A stretch of DNA of 10,709 nt, taken from the NCBI GenBank assembly GCA_016840945.1, contig JAEORJ010000189.1, positions 1-10,709 on the forward strand. The letters are read 5' to 3'. The notes under the pieces were generated by a model. The model had not been told where the DNA came from, ran no database searches, and saw nothing but the letters and a program-made list of their open reading frames with translations. Numbering within the stretch: the first letter of the stretch is position 1; every line of letters starts with the position of its first letter. Both the position numbers and the translations under genes were made by a program. Positions 2,016-10,510 of this stretch are shown here, one piece after another. The DNA is from Candidatus Gerdarchaeota archaeon (lineage in GTDB: Archaea > Asgardarchaeota > Heimdallarchaeia > JABLTI01).

Positions 2016-2903
2016 TTACTGCTCAGATATTTCTACAGCTACATTACTCATATTAGTAGATGATGAAGCAATTGGTTCAATTTTAGCTGTAAATTCCTTG
2101 CTCATCTGTTTAACTATCCAAGCTTTACCTCGAATTCGTTTTTTAAGCCAATCAGGCATTATCCAGCCAAAATAACCTAAAATAATGCTAATCATTGCTG
2201 TAAGACCTCTAGCTGAATGAACGAAACCAACTATAATGGCATTTTCAGCAACACCTGGTATTAAGTAAAAACTGGAAATCAATGTTGATAAAACCATTAT
2301 CATGACTGAATAAAGGATAAAAGTAAAACCTCGTTTTGTTATGGGATTTTCTAAATCACGCCTAATTTTAAGTAATCGTAAAACAATGCGTATATGAATC
2401 ATGATGAAAATTGGTATATACATAATTAGACCAACAGCAGTTTTAGGTAAATATTGTATAACATTGGGACCAACAAGAATAACTGTATCATAAAAGTTAG
2501 GATTTGCTACTTCATTAATTATTTCAGAAAACATTAAGGCACTTACTAATGATACAATAGCAGTGGAGAAAATAGTCGTAACTGCTTTTAAGAAATCCTT
2601 ATCTTGTAAGATATGTCTATTTGAGAAATAATAGAAGAATACATAGGCTAAACCATAACAGAAAACAAAGGATATCTCAAGATGACCAGTATAATCATTA
2701 TCACCAATTACTACATATAAAGTCTGACCAATAGCAGTAAAAGTTTCAGCTATTGCAACAAAGAGAAAGCTAATCCATAGAATAATGGTACCCAAAGTTT
2801 TTTTCTTAATAAATTGCCTAAATAATAGAAAAACAAAGATGTTGGAGAAAATGGTTGCTCCTATAGAGATACTAAGAAAATAAACCTGATAAGCAGTAAC
2901 CAA
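2016..2903 (-). CDS. Seven-helix membrane protein, third gene of the GTPase cassette
   Basis: Integral membrane protein, 295 residues, no enzymatic domain visible. Hydrophobic segments lie at about 7-30, 37-65, 74-94, 105-127, 152-177, 191-215 and 222-249. By the positive-inside rule the basic loops (F-I-K-K-K after helix 1, R/K/H around 95-106, R-L-L-K-I-R-R at 176-182) and the tail (W-L-K-K-R-I-R-G-K from 252) are cytoplasmic, giving N-out/C-in. The G-W-I-M-P-D-W-L-K-K exit from helix 7 resembles the junction after 7TM sensor regions of some archaeal histidine kinases, but no kinase follows: only a ~45-residue polar tail. Start: TTG at 2903, chosen because AAGGAGG (2914-2920), inside the last codons of the GTPase gene, lies 10 nt upstream. 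The GTPase stop is only 5 bp upstream, so translation is probably coupled. I infer a receptor or membrane scaffold for the GTPase. An unrelated transporter or enzyme of unknown family is also possible. Confidence 0.78.
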   Translation of the reverse strand: MVTAYQVYFLSISIGATIFSNIFVFLLFRQFIKKKTLGTIILWISFLFVAIAETFTAIGQTLYVVIGDNDYTGHLEISFVFCYGLAYVFFYYFSNRHILQDKDFLKAVTTIFSTAIVSLVSALMFSEIINEVANPNFYDTVILVGPNVIQYLPKTAVGLIMYIPIFIMIHIRIVLRLLKIRRDLENPITKRGFTFILYSVMIMVLSTLISSFYLIPGVAENAIIVGFVHSARGLTAMISIILGYFGWIMPDWLKKRIRGKAWIVKQMSKEFTAKIEPIASSSTNMSNVAVEISEQ

Positions 2904-2908
2904 CGATA

Positions 2909-3445
2909 CTAAACCTCCTTTAAAACACTAATAAACCACGAAAAGGAATCAAATATACCAGCACCAGTTTTTGCAGAAGTCTCATAGCAAGCCCAAGTGA
3001 ATGAAATGTTAGTATTCAAGAGATTGAATTCGTCAATAAATTCAGCACGCGTAATTCTATCGGGTAAATCAACTTTATTTAATAATATTAAAACAGGAAC
3101 TCTATCATCAATTTGATTGTTAATAATATTGTAAAAAATTTCTTTAGATTCGGAAAGTCTAAAATGATCAGTACTATCAATAACAAATACAAGAGCATCT
3201 GATTTCTCATTAATTTGGTTCCATAAGCCACGGAAATCTTCCTGGCCACCGAGATCAAATACATTAATAGATAATGATGGAAAATCAATCGTTTCTTTAT
3301 TAACGCCTAATGTTGGAATTGTTTCTTTGAATTCTCCACGTACAAGATAATTTAGGATTGTAGTTTTGCCTGCTTTATCTAATCCGCAAATAGTCATATT
3401 TACTTGTTTTGTTCTAAATTTGAAAAGTCGTTGTAAAAGAGACAT
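2909..3445 (-). CDS. Arf/Sar-family-like small GTPase
   Basis: Ras-superfamily GTP switch, 178 residues, about Arf length. All G-boxes are visible: G1 G-L-D-K-A-G-K-T (21-28), G2 P-T-L-G with T45, G3 D-L-G-G-Q-E (64-69, catalytic-type Q68), G4 N-K-V-D (123-126), G5 T-S-A-K-T-G (156-161). The stretch D-x-G-G-Q-x-x-x-R-x-L-W (64-75) and the following 'ALVFVIDSTD' are strongly Arf-like, and distinct from Ras/Rab (DTAGQE). An N-terminal segment with hydrophobic and basic residues (L-L-Q-R-L-F-K-F-R) precedes the G-domain, as in eukaryotic Arf. Residue 2 is Ser, so N-myristoylation is not possible, and there is no C-terminal Cys box for prenylation. Start ATG at 3445 follows AAAGGTG (3454-3460) at 8-nt spacing. 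It sits 32 bp after the longin-like gene and 5 bp before the 7TM gene. The nucleotide-exchange and GTPase-activating partners are not identifiable here. Confidence 0.93.
   Translation of the reverse strand: MSLLQRLFKFRTKQVNMTICGLDKAGKTTILNYLVRGEFKETIPTLGVNKETIDFPSLSINVFDLGGQEDFRGLWNQINEKSDALVFVIDSTDHFRLSESKEIFYNIINNQIDDRVPVLILLNKVDLPDRITRAEFIDEFNLLNTNISFTWACYETSAKTGAGIFDSFSWFISVLKEV
2914..2920 (-). promoter_or_regulatory. Shine-Dalgarno site of the 7TM gene, embedded in GTPase codons
   Basis: AAGGAGG on the minus strand is a near-consensus ribosome-binding site. Its bases are also Lys-Glu and the first base of Val in the final K-E-V of the GTPase. It lies 10 nt before TTG 2903, fixes that unusual start codon, and indicates translational coupling of the two genes. 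Confidence 0.75.
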
Positions 3446-3453
3446 TATAATTT

Positions 3454-3460
3454 CACCTTT
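3454..3460 (-). promoter_or_regulatory. Shine-Dalgarno site of the GTPase gene
   Basis: AAAGGTG on the minus strand lies 8 nt before ATG 3445, in the 32-bp gap after the longin-like gene. It supports reading of the GTPase from a polycistronic message. Confidence 0.6.
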
Positions 3461-3477
3461 TTAAATTGTTTTAGTTT

Positions 3478-3990
3478 TTACCACATATCATCAGCTAATG
3501 ATTTTGCAACCTTAATACCATTTGATTCTTTGGTATCATCTTCATTTTCGATATCAATTTGCACGGTAACAACTGAACTGATTTTTATCTTCATATTTTT
3601 GCTACCAAAAGCATTGTATATTGTAGGTAAGATATTGATAAGAAGATCAATTGAAACAGCTTTGTTGTTTTTTAATTCACCAATTAAAGTTGAAAAGATT
3701 TTTCTCACATTGTTTATGTTGTAAGAAGCATTATCAAAAACAGCAACAATTGAAGCAATGTTATCACGATCAGTCTCTGATGGAATTTTAAATACAAATC
3801 CGGAAAATGCATTATCATTAGAAACAATATTTGAAGTAAAATCTCCTTCTTTTGCGCCTAATGGCATGCTTTTCAATAATATCTCATTTGAAATATCATT
3901 AGGTAAAACCTCTGGGTGCGTTTTTACCATTTCAAGACCCTTTTTACCCATTTGAACTAAACACAAACATACTGGCTTCAATTTAATCAC
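3478..3990 (-). CDS. Probable longin-like protein, first gene of the GTPase cassette
   Basis: No enzymatic motif is visible. The 170-residue sequence reads as an alternating beta/alpha domain: strand 5-13 (P-V-C-L-C-L-V-Q), strand 18-24, helix 32-43, strands around 51-56 and 63-69 (S-G-F-V-F-K-I-P), strand 77-85 (N-I-A-S-I-V-A-V-F), helix 94-108 (V-R-K-I-F-S-T-L-I-G-E-L-K) and helix 113-127. The order beta-beta-alpha-beta-beta-beta-alpha-alpha is that of longin domains, and differs from Roadblock/LC7, which begins with a helix. Longin and Roadblock proteins are regular partners of small GTPases: SRX with the Arf-family SR-beta, Mon1-Ccz1, adaptor small chains. Residues 150-170 form an acidic, probably disordered tail. 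Start: GTG 3990, since an in-frame TAA lies 6 nt upstream. No Shine-Dalgarno precedes it. The TATA-like box at 4041-4050 suggests a ~30-nt leader. The fold call is inference. A Roadblock-type or novel fold remains possible. Confidence 0.55.
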   Translation of the reverse strand: MIKLKPVCLCLVQMGKKGLEMVKTHPEVLPNDISNEILLKSMPLGAKEGDFTSNIVSNDNAFSGFVFKIPSETDRDNIASIVAVFDNASYNINNVRKIFSTLIGELKNNKAVSIDLLINILPTIYNAFGSKNMKIKISSVVTVQIDIENEDDTKESNGIKVAKSLADDMW

Positions 3991-4040: not shown

Positions 4041-4050
4041 AATTTAAAGC
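4041..4050 (-). promoter_or_regulatory. TATA-like element for the GTPase cassette
   Basis: GCTTTAAATT on the minus strand lies about 55 nt before GTG 3990. With the usual ~25-nt TATA-to-start distance this gives a leader of roughly 30 nt. No other promoter-like element lies inside the cassette, which fits one transcript for all three genes. Confidence 0.4.
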
Positions 4051-4224: not shown

Positions 4225-5325
4225 TTGGCTGATAATATAAAACACTACACACTTTTATGTCCTTACTGCAAGAAATCCCTGTCTTTTGATTTACATGCCA
4301 AAGAGTTGGAAGAGAAATTCAGTGGTAATCTTGCTAGTATAATACTTCCATCACATGGTGAACCACCTCATACAGTTGTTGCTTATATCGATAGAGAAGG
4401 ACTTATTAGAAGTGTTCATTCCAGTTTTGAATTAATAGTTCCAAAGATTACTTTACAAAACCATTACATCACTGATGCAACAAGCGAGATTACTCCTGAA
4501 GAAGGTGAAAATCTTGGTATAACTATCCTACCATTTACAATATCAATAGATTATAGTCCTTATCGCAAATATAATGAAGAGATTTTCTTTCCAGAAGTAT
4601 ATGAAGCACTATTAGCCGATAAACGAGTTAAAAGTGAACCTGTAACAGTTGATGCATATTTAGAAGCATTCACAAAAGCTCCTGAGAACAAACCAACTAT
4701 TCTCTTAACAATTAGTAAGCGATATAGTGAAGGATATAATAATGCTATAAGAGCTAAAGAACTCCTTGCTAAAGCAAATCCAAACAAAGCTAGAAAACTC
4801 CATATCATAGATACTAAGACAACAGGGCCAATGATGAAATTAATGATGAATAAAATACTTCAAATGGATGAGAAAGGTGAGACTTTAGAATCCATTTTAG
4901 AATATCTTGAATGGATGCAAGAAAAACATATTACTTATATTTTTGTTGATTCTCTTGATGCACTTAGAAAAAGTGAGCGTGTTGGTCGAGTAACAACCTT
5001 CTTTGGTAATTTATTTGGTTTACGACCGGTTATTATCGAGAATGAGAACAATAACGGTGACCTCAAAGCTTTCAAAACTGTTAGAAGCAAAGCAGACTCT
5101 ATTAAGGAGATTACTAAAGCCATCAAAGCTCAATTTGGTAAAATGGAATTAATTGGTGTCGTATTTTATGGTATACATATAGATGATGCAATACAGCTTC
5201 GAGATAGTCTAAAGTTAGAAGATGAAACTAAAGAAAATGACTTTACGTTAGATTTCATCGGAACAGGTGTCGCTATTCACTTAAGTTATGATCTCTTAGG
5301 AATCTCTCTTTATCCAAAATTATAA
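4225..5325 (+). CDS. DegV-family fatty-acid-binding protein with N-terminal zinc-ribbon domain
   Basis: DegV/FakB-type proteins bind a single fatty acid between two alpha/beta lobes. In bacteria they present it to a kinase (FakA). No FakA is seen here, and archaeal roles are open. Residues 1-78 form an extra domain: C-P-Y-C at 12-15, then H-G-E-P-P-H (44-49) and a strand-rich 'TVVAYIDREGLIRSV', probably metal-binding through two Cys and possibly the two His. The DegV domain begins at 'YITDATSEIT' (81-90, consensus vTDStadl), followed by L-G-I-T-I-L-P-F; K-S-E-P-V-T (136-141) replaces the usual T-S-Q-P-S; 'LLTISKRYSEGYNNA' matches the I-S-S-x-L-S-G-T-Y element in degenerate form; D-T-K (196-198) and 'VDSLDALRKSERVGR' (241-255) match the D-T and v-d-t-L-x-y-L-x-k-g-G-R-i elements. 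Start TTG 4225 is the first usual start after an in-frame TAA at 4201 and sits just past a strong TATA box. The next gene follows after 91 bp on the same strand. Confidence 0.85.
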   Translation: MADNIKHYTLLCPYCKKSLSFDLHAKELEEKFSGNLASIILPSHGEPPHTVVAYIDREGLIRSVHSSFELIVPKITLQNHYITDATSEITPEEGENLGITILPFTISIDYSPYRKYNEEIFFPEVYEALLADKRVKSEPVTVDAYLEAFTKAPENKPTILLTISKRYSEGYNNAIRAKELLAKANPNKARKLHIIDTKTTGPMMKLMMNKILQMDEKGETLESILEYLEWMQEKHITYIFVDSLDALRKSERVGRVTTFFGNLFGLRPVIIENENNNGDLKAFKTVRSKADSIKEITKAIKAQFGKMELIGVVFYGIHIDDAIQLRDSLKLEDETKENDFTLDFIGTGVAIHLSYDLLGISLYPKL

Positions 5326-5416: not shown

Positions 5417-6754
5417 ATGTTAAATGAAACTGATTCTTTTTTTAGATTCTTTATAGGTTGTAAAAAAAGATTCAAATGTTATTCTAAAGACCAAATTGCC
5501 AAATATCAGTTAGCTAATGCTAAAGAAATTGTTCAATATGCTTCTGACAATGCACCATTCTTTAACAAATACTATCAAGAAGTTGACAAACATGATGTGT
5601 GGAATTTACCTATTATAACCAAGAAAATAATGATGGACAATTTTAGTGATTATAACAGTATAGGACTGAAGAAAGAAGAGCTATTAGAATTTACAGCAAA
5701 AGTGGAACGAGAACAAAGTTACGATTTACGATTTAAGGGTTATAATGTAGCTATGTCTTCAGGTACAAGTGGTAATAAAGGCTTAGTTCTAACCAGCCCC
5801 GCTGAAGAGAAATATTTACAAGCAGCTTTTTTTGCGCGATTCAGTTTTCCTCATATTGTTAGAATAAAATGGGCCTTTATGTTAAGGATAACTACACCTG
5901 CCTTTCAAGTTAGCAAGTTTGGTCAAAGATTAACTCACATAAATCTACAACTTACATTAGAGAAAATTAGAGAAAGGTTACAAAAATTCCAACCCAATAT
6001 ATTATCAGCTCCTCCTTCAATGTTGAAAATTCTAGCAAAAGAAATTCAAGAAAATAGACTAGATATTAAACCCAAAAGAGTAGTCTCATATGCGGAAGTA
6101 TTAGAACCTGATATTAAGAAAGAGCTAGAAGATGTGTTTAGAACACCCATACACCAGATATATCAAGGAAGTGAAGGGTCGATAGGACTAACTTGTAAAC
6201 ATGGTTCTCTTCATGTAAATGAAGATTTAGTCAAATTACAATTATATAATAAAGATGGTTCTGAAACAGAACCAGGGAATCCTTGTTTTGAATCAATAGT
6301 TACAGATTTGCATAAAAAATCTCAACCTATTATTAGATTCAAATTAAATGATATTTTAACGATTTCACCTGATGAATGTCAATGTGGTTCATCCTTTAGA
6401 GTGATAGAACAAATATTAGGACGAGCTGATGATCTTTTTTGGGGGGAAAGAGTAGATATTAATGAACTTCAATATATCTTTCCAGATTATATTCGAAGAG
6501 CTATTATTTCGAGTTCAGAAACAATTGAAGAATATCAAGCTCTACAAAAGAGCCCTCTAAAAATAATTATAAGATTGGTGCTTAACAGTCAAGATAATAA
6601 AGAATTACTTATAGTGAATTTACAAGAAAGCATAGGCAGGGTATTTTCTAATTACTCCTGCAAAAAACCTGATGTAGAAGTAAGATTTGAACAACCAATT
6701 AAAAATCCTCATTCAAATAAATTAATTCGTATTCAAAGGGATTTTAAGGTTTAA
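5417..6754 (+). CDS. CapK / phenylacetate-CoA ligase / F390-synthetase-like adenylate-forming enzyme
   Basis: ANL-superfamily enzyme that should activate a carboxylic acid with ATP to an acyl-adenylate, probably in the cytosol. The 445 residues are the usual length for the CapK/PaaK branch. Visible in order: N-terminal 'AKYQLANAKEIVQYASDNAPFF' type helices with 'LPIITKK' (64-70), the ATP loop S-S-G-T-S-G-N-K-G (114-122), 'APPSML' (198-203) and 'VVSYAEVLEPDIKKELE', the nucleotide-binding Y-Q-G-S-E-G (249-254), R-F-K-L-N-D (307-312), C-Q-C-G (321-324) after an earlier C260, as seen in metal-binding CapK/PaaK relatives, and G-R-A-D-D (335-339) at the hinge to the C-terminal domain. The C-terminal 'HSNKLIRIQR' (432-441) may carry the domain's lysine. 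The substrate cannot be read from sequence. Relatives act on phenylacetate, coenzyme F420 (F390 synthetase) or polysaccharide/lipid precursors. ATG 5417 is preceded by a weak AGGA (5401-5404). It may be co-transcribed with the DegV gene, which would suggest a shared acid substrate. Confidence 0.8.
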   Translation: MLNETDSFFRFFIGCKKRFKCYSKDQIAKYQLANAKEIVQYASDNAPFFNKYYQEVDKHDVWNLPIITKKIMMDNFSDYNSIGLKKEELLEFTAKVEREQSYDLRFKGYNVAMSSGTSGNKGLVLTSPAEEKYLQAAFFARFSFPHIVRIKWAFMLRITTPAFQVSKFGQRLTHINLQLTLEKIRERLQKFQPNILSAPPSMLKILAKEIQENRLDIKPKRVVSYAEVLEPDIKKELEDVFRTPIHQIYQGSEGSIGLTCKHGSLHVNEDLVKLQLYNKDGSETEPGNPCFESIVTDLHKKSQPIIRFKLNDILTISPDECQCGSSFRVIEQILGRADDLFWGERVDINELQYIFPDYIRRAIISSSETIEEYQALQKSPLKIIIRLVLNSQDNKELLIVNLQESIGRVFSNYSCKKPDVEVRFEQPIKNPHSNKLIRIQRDFKV

Positions 6755-9367: not shown

Positions 9368-9416
9368 ATTTTGATTTTAAGAGATTACCAATATGATAAT
9401 CTCCTAAAATCAAAAT
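9368..9416 (-). terminator. 20-bp hairpin at the 3' end of the acetyltransferase mRNA
   Basis: Arms 9397-9416 and 9368-9387 pair around a 9-nt loop. Nineteen of twenty positions are Watson-Crick. The remaining one (A9380 with C9404) is a G-U pair only in the minus-strand RNA, so the stem is continuous in the acetyltransferase transcript. The stem starts at the last base of the TGA stop codon. A T7 tract follows on the minus strand at 9333-9339. It is either a terminator or a 3'-end protecting structure. Confidence 0.7.
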
Positions 9417-10486
9417 CAATTTTCAAATAATTTCTGAAGGTGATCAACGGTTATCTGAGCATTAATAGACTCCTTATGCACTTTGAAACCTAAACGATTG
9501 TTAATTGATAGCATTGGAGCATTGGTTGTAGCATTACCTGTGGTGACTATCTTTACTTTGGGGTATCGTTTTTGCACTTCCAATAGCATACTAGCTTTTA
9601 ACCACTTGCCTAATCCACGACCACGATGTTTTTCTTGTACACCAGTCATTAGTTGTGATATTATGGTACCGATATTTGGATTGTATCGCATCTGTGTTAA
9701 ACCCGAGATTTCGCCAGAAGGTTCTTTAGTAACCATTATGAGTTCTTCTCGACCCATATCCTGAAACATTTTTTCGTTATTTCTTTGAATTTCAGGAGTA
9801 ATAATAATTGCACCTATATCTAAACTACCTAATGGTTGTTGATTTATTACTTCTGTAAGTAATTTACAATAACTCTCTATAATATCATCAGGTATTGTAG
9901 AATATATTTCGAGTTTGGTATTTGGTGATCTGGCTTGTCCTTCTTCTTTCCATTGAGCAACCATATCCCAATCTACTTCATCAAAATATAATCGGTTCTC
10001 AACACCAGCTAAAGCAACTTGGGCTCCAATTTTATTTAGAAAAGCCTGACCATCCTCATTATCACTTCCTGTAATGAGAAGTTTCCTATGTTTTTCAATT
10101 GCAAAATCGTAAACCTTTTTCAAAGCTTGCATACCAATACCTTGACGGCGGTAATTTTTCAAAACATATATATCATATTGTACAAGATGCTTCGTTCCTT
10201 CATATGAGGGTGACTTTTCTGTTACAACTGCGCGCATAATCTCACCAATTTGCTTATCTGTTCTATTATCAATAATGTTGGTGAGTATAATTTCCGCTTC
10301 AGGAGTTTGTAAATTGGCTTTAATGCTTTGTTCAGCAGATTCATCACTACTAATAGGATCATCAGGATTTACCTCCATTCTTTGCTTTCTGCGGAATTCA
10401 TGATAGCGTTTCCATTCATCCTCTGTTGCTATTAGAGGATCGAATTTCGTAAATGTTATTGATTCCATGATTGTTTTTTTCATCAT
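9416..10486 (-). CDS. Tandem-domain GNAT N-acetyltransferase
   Basis: Two GNAT folds in one chain, the arrangement of mycothiol synthase MshD and many uncharacterised acetyltransferases. Positions count from ATG 10486 (356 residues). In the N-terminal domain, 'YDIYVLKNYRRQGIG' ends in the acetyl-CoA-binding R-R-Q-G-I-G (113-118), and 'GQAFLNKIGA' is the closing helix. In the C-terminal domain, 'TGVQEKHRGRGLG' gives the second acetyl-CoA loop H-R-G-R-G-L-G (287-293), followed by N-x-x-x-N-x-P-M-L-x-I-N-x-R-L-G-F (318-334), a very standard GNAT ending. Both loops keep the R/Q-x-x-G-x-G/A pattern, so both could bind acetyl-CoA. The substrate is unknown (amine, small molecule or antibiotic-like). 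Start: GTG 10495, ATG 10486, ATG 10483 and ATG 10468 are all in frame. 10486 was preferred because the TATA-like box (10511-10520) would start transcription near 10490, past the GTG. It faces a regulator gene across a palindromic site. Confidence 0.85.
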   Translation of the reverse strand: MMKKTIMESITFTKFDPLIATEDEWKRYHEFRRKQRMEVNPDDPISSDESAEQSIKANLQTPEAEIILTNIIDNRTDKQIGEIMRAVVTEKSPSYEGTKHLVQYDIYVLKNYRRQGIGMQALKKVYDFAIEKHRKLLITGSDNEDGQAFLNKIGAQVALAGVENRLYFDEVDWDMVAQWKEEGQARSPNTKLEIYSTIPDDIIESYCKLLTEVINQQPLGSLDIGAIIITPEIQRNNEKMFQDMGREELIMVTKEPSGEISGLTQMRYNPNIGTIISQLMTGVQEKHRGRGLGKWLKASMLLEVQKRYPKVKIVTTGNATTNAPMLSINNRLGFKVHKESINAQITVDHLQKLFEN

Positions 10487-10510
10487 AAATAACACCGTTA
10501 TTTCTATTTG

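Follow-up and report, generated by a model that had tools for sequence, protein, structure and literature searches.

The 10,709-nucleotide stretch of Candidatus Gerdarchaeota archaeon DNA analyzed here, termed the window, contains a cassette of three genes on its minus strand. These open reading frames, termed LO, GT and TM for a longin-like protein of 170 residues, an Arf-like GTPase and a seven-transmembrane (7TM) protein, lie in this order with intergenic gaps of 32 bp and then 5 bp (Table 1), and their coordinates match those of a preliminary description made from the sequence alone. Ribosome-binding-like motifs were present ahead of GT and TM, as had been described, and a T-rich stretch was confirmed beyond position 2016, downstream of TM. 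A promoter-like box had also been proposed; a TATA-like CTTTAAAT, which we take to be an archaeal TATA-like box from its consensus, was indeed detected by eye upstream of LO. A scan for bacterial promoters and terminators gave no excess over shuffled sequences (67 versus a mean of 62.6, with a standard deviation of 7.1, for sigma-70-type promoters). As the consensus start of LO homologues is MKPxSLCLVQMG, translation of LO probably begins at TTG 3976-3978 rather than GTG 3990. No match to anti-phage families was obtained for LO, GT or TM.

Table 1. Positions of the cassette genes and their features in the window
Feature	Position	Strand	Basis
LO, predicted longin-domain protein	3478..3990	-	170 aa if started at GTG 3990; 166 aa from TTG, the probable start
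GT, Arf-like small GTPase, 178 aa	2909..3445	-	ATG start, Pfam Arf match
TM, 7TM membrane protein, 295 aa	2016..2903	-	TTG start, helix prediction
Arg75 codon CGT of LO, proposed arginine finger	3766..3768	-	sequence, predicted strands, NPRL2 alignment
P-loop GLDKAGKT, residues 21-28 of GT	3362..3385	-	sequence, GT alignment
Gln68 of DLGGQ, candidate catalytic glutamine of GT	3242..3244	-	sequence, GT alignment
Ribosome-binding-like GGTGA ahead of GT ATG	3453..3457	-	read in sequence
Ribosome-binding-like GGAGGT ahead of TM TTG	2913..2918	-	read in sequence
TATA-like CTTTAAAT upstream of LO and the cassette	4042..4049	-	by eye

The Arf-family identity proposed for GT was borne out by a match to Pfam Arf (E = 1.2e-42; 145.7 bits against a curated cut-off of 22.3) and by phmmer matches to PDB sequences, the best being 3lrp (ADP-ribosylation factor 1), presumably from P. 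falciparum, and the second 8oun ('GTP-binding protein'). All of the nucleotide motifs of the window's GT were intact (GLDKAGKT, PTLG, DLGGQ and NKVD). The seven-helix membrane protein was likewise upheld by helix prediction, which placed the N terminus of TM outside and the C terminus inside; a beta-hairpin loop was present between helices 4 and 5 of the predicted model. Lysine and arginine residues of the window's TM numbered eight in the three predicted inner loops and seven at the end of helix 7, versus one in the three outer loops, and PDWLKKRIRGKAWI formed a basic conserved segment at the helix 7 end. In the model the inner face was conserved and the outer face variable. TM matched no Pfam or NCBIfam family above cut-off, no G protein-coupled receptor (GPCR) family and no PDB sequence at E ≤ 10.

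Structure prediction pointed to a longin domain in the 170-residue protein, in agreement with the longin-like fold previously suggested. The predicted fold comprised a longin core (residues ∼8-127) with the order strand-strand-helix-three strands-two helices, a beta hairpin (132-146) and a tail helix of low confidence whose last residue, Trp170, is conserved. A longin fold match was obtained, and the top fold matches were chains of the NPRL2 kind from GATOR1/SEA complexes, with the alignment passing helix 3 into the hairpin (residues 4-156 of the model). No Pfam or NCBIfam family was detected above cut-off for LO, no longin family was present among 25 of the 34 Pfam families listed at E ≤ 1 for 52 LO homologues, and a single-sequence search of PDB gave no match. 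An LO profile run against PDB sequences produced five weak matches, the best to CsgE at an E value of 0.023, all of which were rejected as unrelated.

Conservation and co-divergence of the cassette

A search of 5.8 billion proteins detected 52 LO and 19 TM homologues, counting those of the window itself. Nearly all named sources were Asgard (Heimdallarchaeota, Thorarchaeota or Asgard group), as expected, the exception being one genome labelled Bathyarchaeia with one LO and one TM. When the LO alignment was scanned against GTDB contigs, 12 loci were detected in four Heimdallarchaeota/Asgard genomes; TM was downstream on the same strand in all 12, and GT was located between them in 11, in one case as a 73-aa piece. 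A phylum-wide scan of 227 Asgard-phylum genomes found LO matches in 33 and TM matches in 72 at E ≤ 0.001, many of them weak; scoring took up to 16 LO and 10 TM candidates per genome, and weak matches may be missed. When every TM candidate was scored in four genomes (G001 to G004), the same strong set was obtained. Strong matches amounted to 28 for TM in 12 genomes (E < 1e-35; next match, 3.4e-15) and 32 for LO in 13 genomes (E < 1e-20; next match, 6.3e-18).

LO was immediately upstream and on the same strand in all 28 close TM homologues, demonstrating an arrangement far beyond chance. The distance from LO to TM was GTPase-sized (547-607 bp) in 20 of these 28 and 44-167 bp in the other 8. An intact Arf-like GT occupied 18 of the 20 GTPase-sized gaps; the remaining two, C60 and C49 of genome G004, carried a GT with internal stops, and in C49 both LO and TM were broken as well. 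The neighborhood check proposed in the preliminary description, therefore, revealed a conserved cassette whose architecture is well supported. As GT was absent between LO and TM in the eight short-gap loci, the constant pair is the longin plus the 7TM protein. One genome contained six cassettes and two contained five. No longin-Arf-7TM cassette was described in the titles and abstract beginnings that were searched; this coverage did not extend to the Asgard Arf papers Vargova 2025 and Zhu 2025 (cited in PMC12554972), and a published description may therefore exist.

Co-divergence was analyzed for 19 cassettes, namely the 18 intact ones and that of the window. Pairwise distances exhibited correlations of 0.878 for LO-GT, 0.836 for LO-TM and 0.921 for GT-TM, while the correlation was never above 0.44 in 5,000 free permutations of partners. 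Permutation within genomes retains the species history and permits 4,320 orders; mean correlations were then 0.62, 0.58 and 0.54, respectively, and the observed values were reached 0, 1 and 1 times in 5,000 permutations. The unchanged order by itself is expected about once in 5,000 draws, and the best LO-GT shuffle came close (0.869). No flanking gene was in common for 60 of 78 locus pairs, and the flanks of the window matched none of the 12 loci. As distances correlate and flanking genes differ, LO, GT and TM are duplicated and diverge as a set while their surroundings change.

The P-loop AGKT and the glutamine were present in all 19 cassette GTs, and a short hydrophobic/basic N-terminal start was alike in all 19 rows of the sequence alignment. 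Seven of the 19 had HKxD instead of the NKxD guanine-specificity motif, a change that may alter nucleotide preference, and one (L123) was without PT.

A candidate arginine finger and the proposed mechanism

Arg75 of LO was placed between strand 4 (61-69) and strand 5 (77-85) of the predicted structure and, in profile alignments, was opposite the catalytic Arg78 of NPRL2. According to its title, the paper of Shen et al. (2019) reports that NPRL2 Arg78 catalyzes GATOR1-stimulated hydrolysis. According to two other sources, SMCR8 Arg147 is directed into the ARF1 active site (PMC8213707) and, in the GTPase-activating proteins (GAPs) of the Avl9/DENN group, the arginine finger lies between strands 4 and 5 (preprint PMC12803157). 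Of the 101 LO rows aligned, which include partial sequences and near-duplicates, 95 have Arg75. The six rows without it were L018 (from a broken cassette, with Cys), L057 (a distant relative), L046, L120, L121 and L122; among strong LO genes, the last four alone had no TM match. Hence, 27 of the 28 copies in cassettes retain the arginine, versus none of the four paralogues found without a TM gene. These paralogues were located at G063:C260 (L046), G001:C22 (L120), G002:C21 (L121) and G003:C164 (L122), with L046 and L122 at contig ends. By eye, the upstream neighbor of L120 and L046 resembled an HtrA-type protease, and a similar gene was seen ∼2.5 kb from L121.

On the predicted model and these alignments, LO resembles the NPRL2/SMCR8 type of arginine-finger GAP. 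The partnership with the GTPase that had been suggested for the longin protein is thereby sharpened, while the steady pair turned out to be the longin and 7TM proteins instead. The reading that we favor, with about even confidence, is a receptor-controlled GAP, in which LO, as a stand-alone longin GAP for the Arf-like GTPase, is under the control of a 7TM sensor; GAP activity, membrane binding of GT, contact between LO and TM, sensing and the direction of control are all parts that we infer. GT in its GTP form would sit on the membrane by its N-terminal helix, and LO would bind beside the active site, with Arg75 inserted as its arginine finger, the mode of action proposed for NPRL2 acting on Rag and seen for SMCR8 acting on ARF1. 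TM would hold LO at the membrane and sense something extracellular by its variable outer face, and its conserved inner face would release or engage the GAP, such that the signal would set the on-time of GT. Every duplicated cassette would then be a separate channel.

Several observations weigh against a receptor-controlled GAP. The probability of the LO-NPRL2 profile match was just 15-17%; a narrow LO alignment gave nothing significant, and the broader LO family was required. In a further control, the LO profile scored 19.3 against the GT alignment and 12.3 against the TM alignment. The NPRL2 search returned 251 proteins, of which the best 120 were listed, vertebrate wherever named and too similar to deepen the profile. 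An arginine-finger role for NPRL2 (Arg78) and FLCN has itself been questioned, according to PMC8213707, and most known longin GAPs are paired longin-DENN proteins, whereas the cassette has a single longin and no DENN part. The four Arg-less paralogues formed two like pairs (Glu/Glu and Lys/Lys) and therefore represent one or two loss events, and L046 stops ∼117 bp short of the contig end, so that a TM gene may follow it. The contrast between a conserved inner face and a variable outer face of TM depends on the predicted model, and in one GTPase-less pair (G060 C55) TM had two internal stops. Finally, all eight GTPase-less pairs retained Arg75, and the GAP reading therefore needs a GTPase made elsewhere. 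LO of these pairs may act on such a GTPase: a cassette-type GTPase gene without adjacent LO or TM was present in each of the two genomes with GTPase-less pairs that were examined (L119, identical to L126, in G001 and L103 in G003, the latter on a contig without a listed LO or TM match).

TM itself could be the exchange factor for GT, as GPCRs are for G-alpha, with LO merely ending the signal. This fits the predicted N-out 7TM bundle, whose best PDB matches were among GPCRs, the inner loops and helix 7 end being the most conserved parts of TM, and the strongest co-divergence being that of GT with TM. However, the structure match list is biased, since GPCRs dominate the solved 7TM structures, no GPCR sequence family was found for TM, and GT is the part that drops out, in 8 of 28 pairs, with LO and TM staying together. 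As LO and TM remain paired after loss of GT, LO is the likeliest direct partner of TM, and a receptor-controlled GAP is therefore preferred over GPCR-like exchange, which we regard as unlikely. An anchoring or trafficking device, resembling SRX/SR-beta or coat adaptors and having TM as a docking site that senses nothing, is more doubtful; diverged copies, as many as six per genome and varying in their outer faces, are better suited to many inputs than to one housekeeping dock. Slightly more doubtful again is a role of LO in nucleotide exchange or scaffolding, after the manner of TRAPP, Mon1-Ccz1 or DENN Rab-GEFs, with TM as its anchor, as longin GAPs are proposed to be marked by an Arg between strands 4 and 5, which is near-invariant in LO, and the chains matched best in fold belong to a GAP complex. 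That the genes are neighbors without functional reason, for example as one old inherited block, hardly merits credence, as the 18 of 78 locus pairs with at least one flanking homologue in common are outweighed by the differing flanks of the others and of the window, and the idea is already contradicted by the invariable LO-TM neighborhood and by co-divergence within genomes.

Known systems, distant relatives and neighboring genes

The longin fold and the strand 4-5 Arg are common to LO and to NPRL2 of GATOR1 and Npr2 of SEACIT, the subunits switching off Rag GTPases. LO differs in being a stand-alone protein of 170 aa without a DENN part or an NPRL3-like cassette partner, in being encoded with an Arf-like GTPase instead of Rag and in having an adjoining 7TM gene. 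A longin-borne Arg finger acting on ARF-family GTPases, as proposed for LO, is described for SMCR8-C9orf72 and Avl9/DENND6A; these are longin-DENN proteins for which the available text mentions no receptor gene partner (PMC8213707 and PMC12803157), whereas LO has no DENN domain. Pfam NPR2 gave no match above cut-off across the 227 Asgard genomes and three weak matches, none of them in the N-terminal part of the model. LO is, therefore, not counted as a member of the NPRL2/SMCR8 family on sequence grounds, the C-terminal/DENN part and a Pfam NPR2 match being absent.

The logic of an N-out 7TM sensor with a GTPase and a GAP is shared with GPCR-G protein signaling and with the plant 7TM-RGS receptor AtRGS1, in which a 7TM part is combined with an RGS part acting on G-alpha. 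The cassette, in contrast, has no GPCR or RGS sequence family, a monomeric Arf-like GTPase and a separate longin GAP as proposed above. E/DRY and NPxxY are the names of GPCR motifs; the invariant Arg96 at the end of helix 3 of TM is in NRH, not DRY. Judged by sequence, TM is not counted as a GPCR, since the N-out 7TM layout was predicted but the sequence family and motifs were not found. Asgard ArfR GTPases, of which 8oun is presumably one, share the Arf-family G domain with GT. Bacterial MglA-MglB consists of a small GTPase with a cognate small GAP, as in the proposed GT-LO pair; MglB is a roadblock protein, and the system is not known to have a 7TM partner.

A rough tree of 49 GTPases from a limited set of loci, with PfArf1 as the one eukaryotic Arf, separated the cassette GTs from the group nearest PfArf1. 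That group contained Arf-like genes of four Heimdallarchaeota/Asgard genomes (L090-L093). The cassette GTs were rejected as a single clade, the smallest split with all 19 adding one broken-cassette copy and two single genes at a support of 0.47. The preliminary description had a cassette of this kind predating eukaryotic systems. This was not supported, with close TM homologues in only 12 of 227 genomes and GTs outside the group nearest PfArf1; few Asgard genomes carry the cassette, which leaves its ancestry to eukaryotic systems unproven. A prokaryotic analogue of receptor-G protein signaling with parallel channels, in which LO would be a one-domain relative of the GATOR1/FLCN/C9orf72-SMCR8 GAP core and longin arginine-finger GAPs would have arisen in archaea before DENN domains and lysosomes, is a bolder and tentative proposal. 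It is weakened by the restricted distribution, by the position of GT in the tree and by the derivation of the structural analogies from predictions.

Asgard archaea, which are related to the forebears of complex cells, have many small GTPases whose partners are hard to assign. In strain MK-D1, according to PMC10933270, small GTPase genes do not as a rule share operons with genes for roadblock, longin or TRAPPC3 proteins, making layout-based matching of GAPs and exchange factors difficult. In the cassette, a GTPase, a candidate GAP and a presumed membrane sensor, which resemble signaling components found chiefly in complex cells, are linked directly. It occurs in many copies, and its natural variants and broken versions serve as controls. 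How longin GAPs and receptor-controlled GTPase switching originated thus becomes testable with three small proteins.

Distant relatives of LO and TM exhibited similar neighbor pairings; hence, the pairing of a longin with a membrane protein may be a wider Asgard theme. Seven distant LO relatives (L047, L050, L051, L053, L054, L056 and L061) preceded two genes of ∼215 aa, and the four loci checked (L047, L053, L054 and L061) had 5-7 hydrophobic segments in each. A 300-aa GTPase with an Arf domain adjoined a distant LO in L048, L053 and L061, being upstream in the latter two, and likewise in L049, which was outside the Pfam-tested set; assignment of these 300-aa neighbors to Rag was rejected, the Arf match being far better. 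Some distant TM relatives (L076, L077, L078, L084 and L088) were preceded by a ∼150-aa gene starting with IYIISRNGVPI or similar, while several others (e.g., L073, L081 and L083) were not. Four ∼150-aa genes were tested: those at L076, L078 and L088 gave weak, sub-cut-off roadblock, Sybindin or Fuz/Mon1-longin matches among unrelated ones, and that at L129 gave no roadblock- or longin-type match. At L077, L079 and L084 the ∼150-aa gene was likened by position alone. A 275-aa LO relative (L058, 1102-1929) had a C-terminal extension that by eye resembled a second longin/roadblock domain, which would make it a fused longin pair.

Elsewhere in the window, a 461-aa protein (601-1986) with hydrophobic ends and a weak, sub-cut-off match to a delta-60 repeat appeared surface-repeat-like by eye. 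A DegV-domain protein with an additional N-terminal part containing CxxC (4225-5325) was followed by an F390-synthetase-related protein above the NCBIfam cut-off (5417-6754). The protein at 9416-10495 had two stretches matching acetyltransferases (GNAT).
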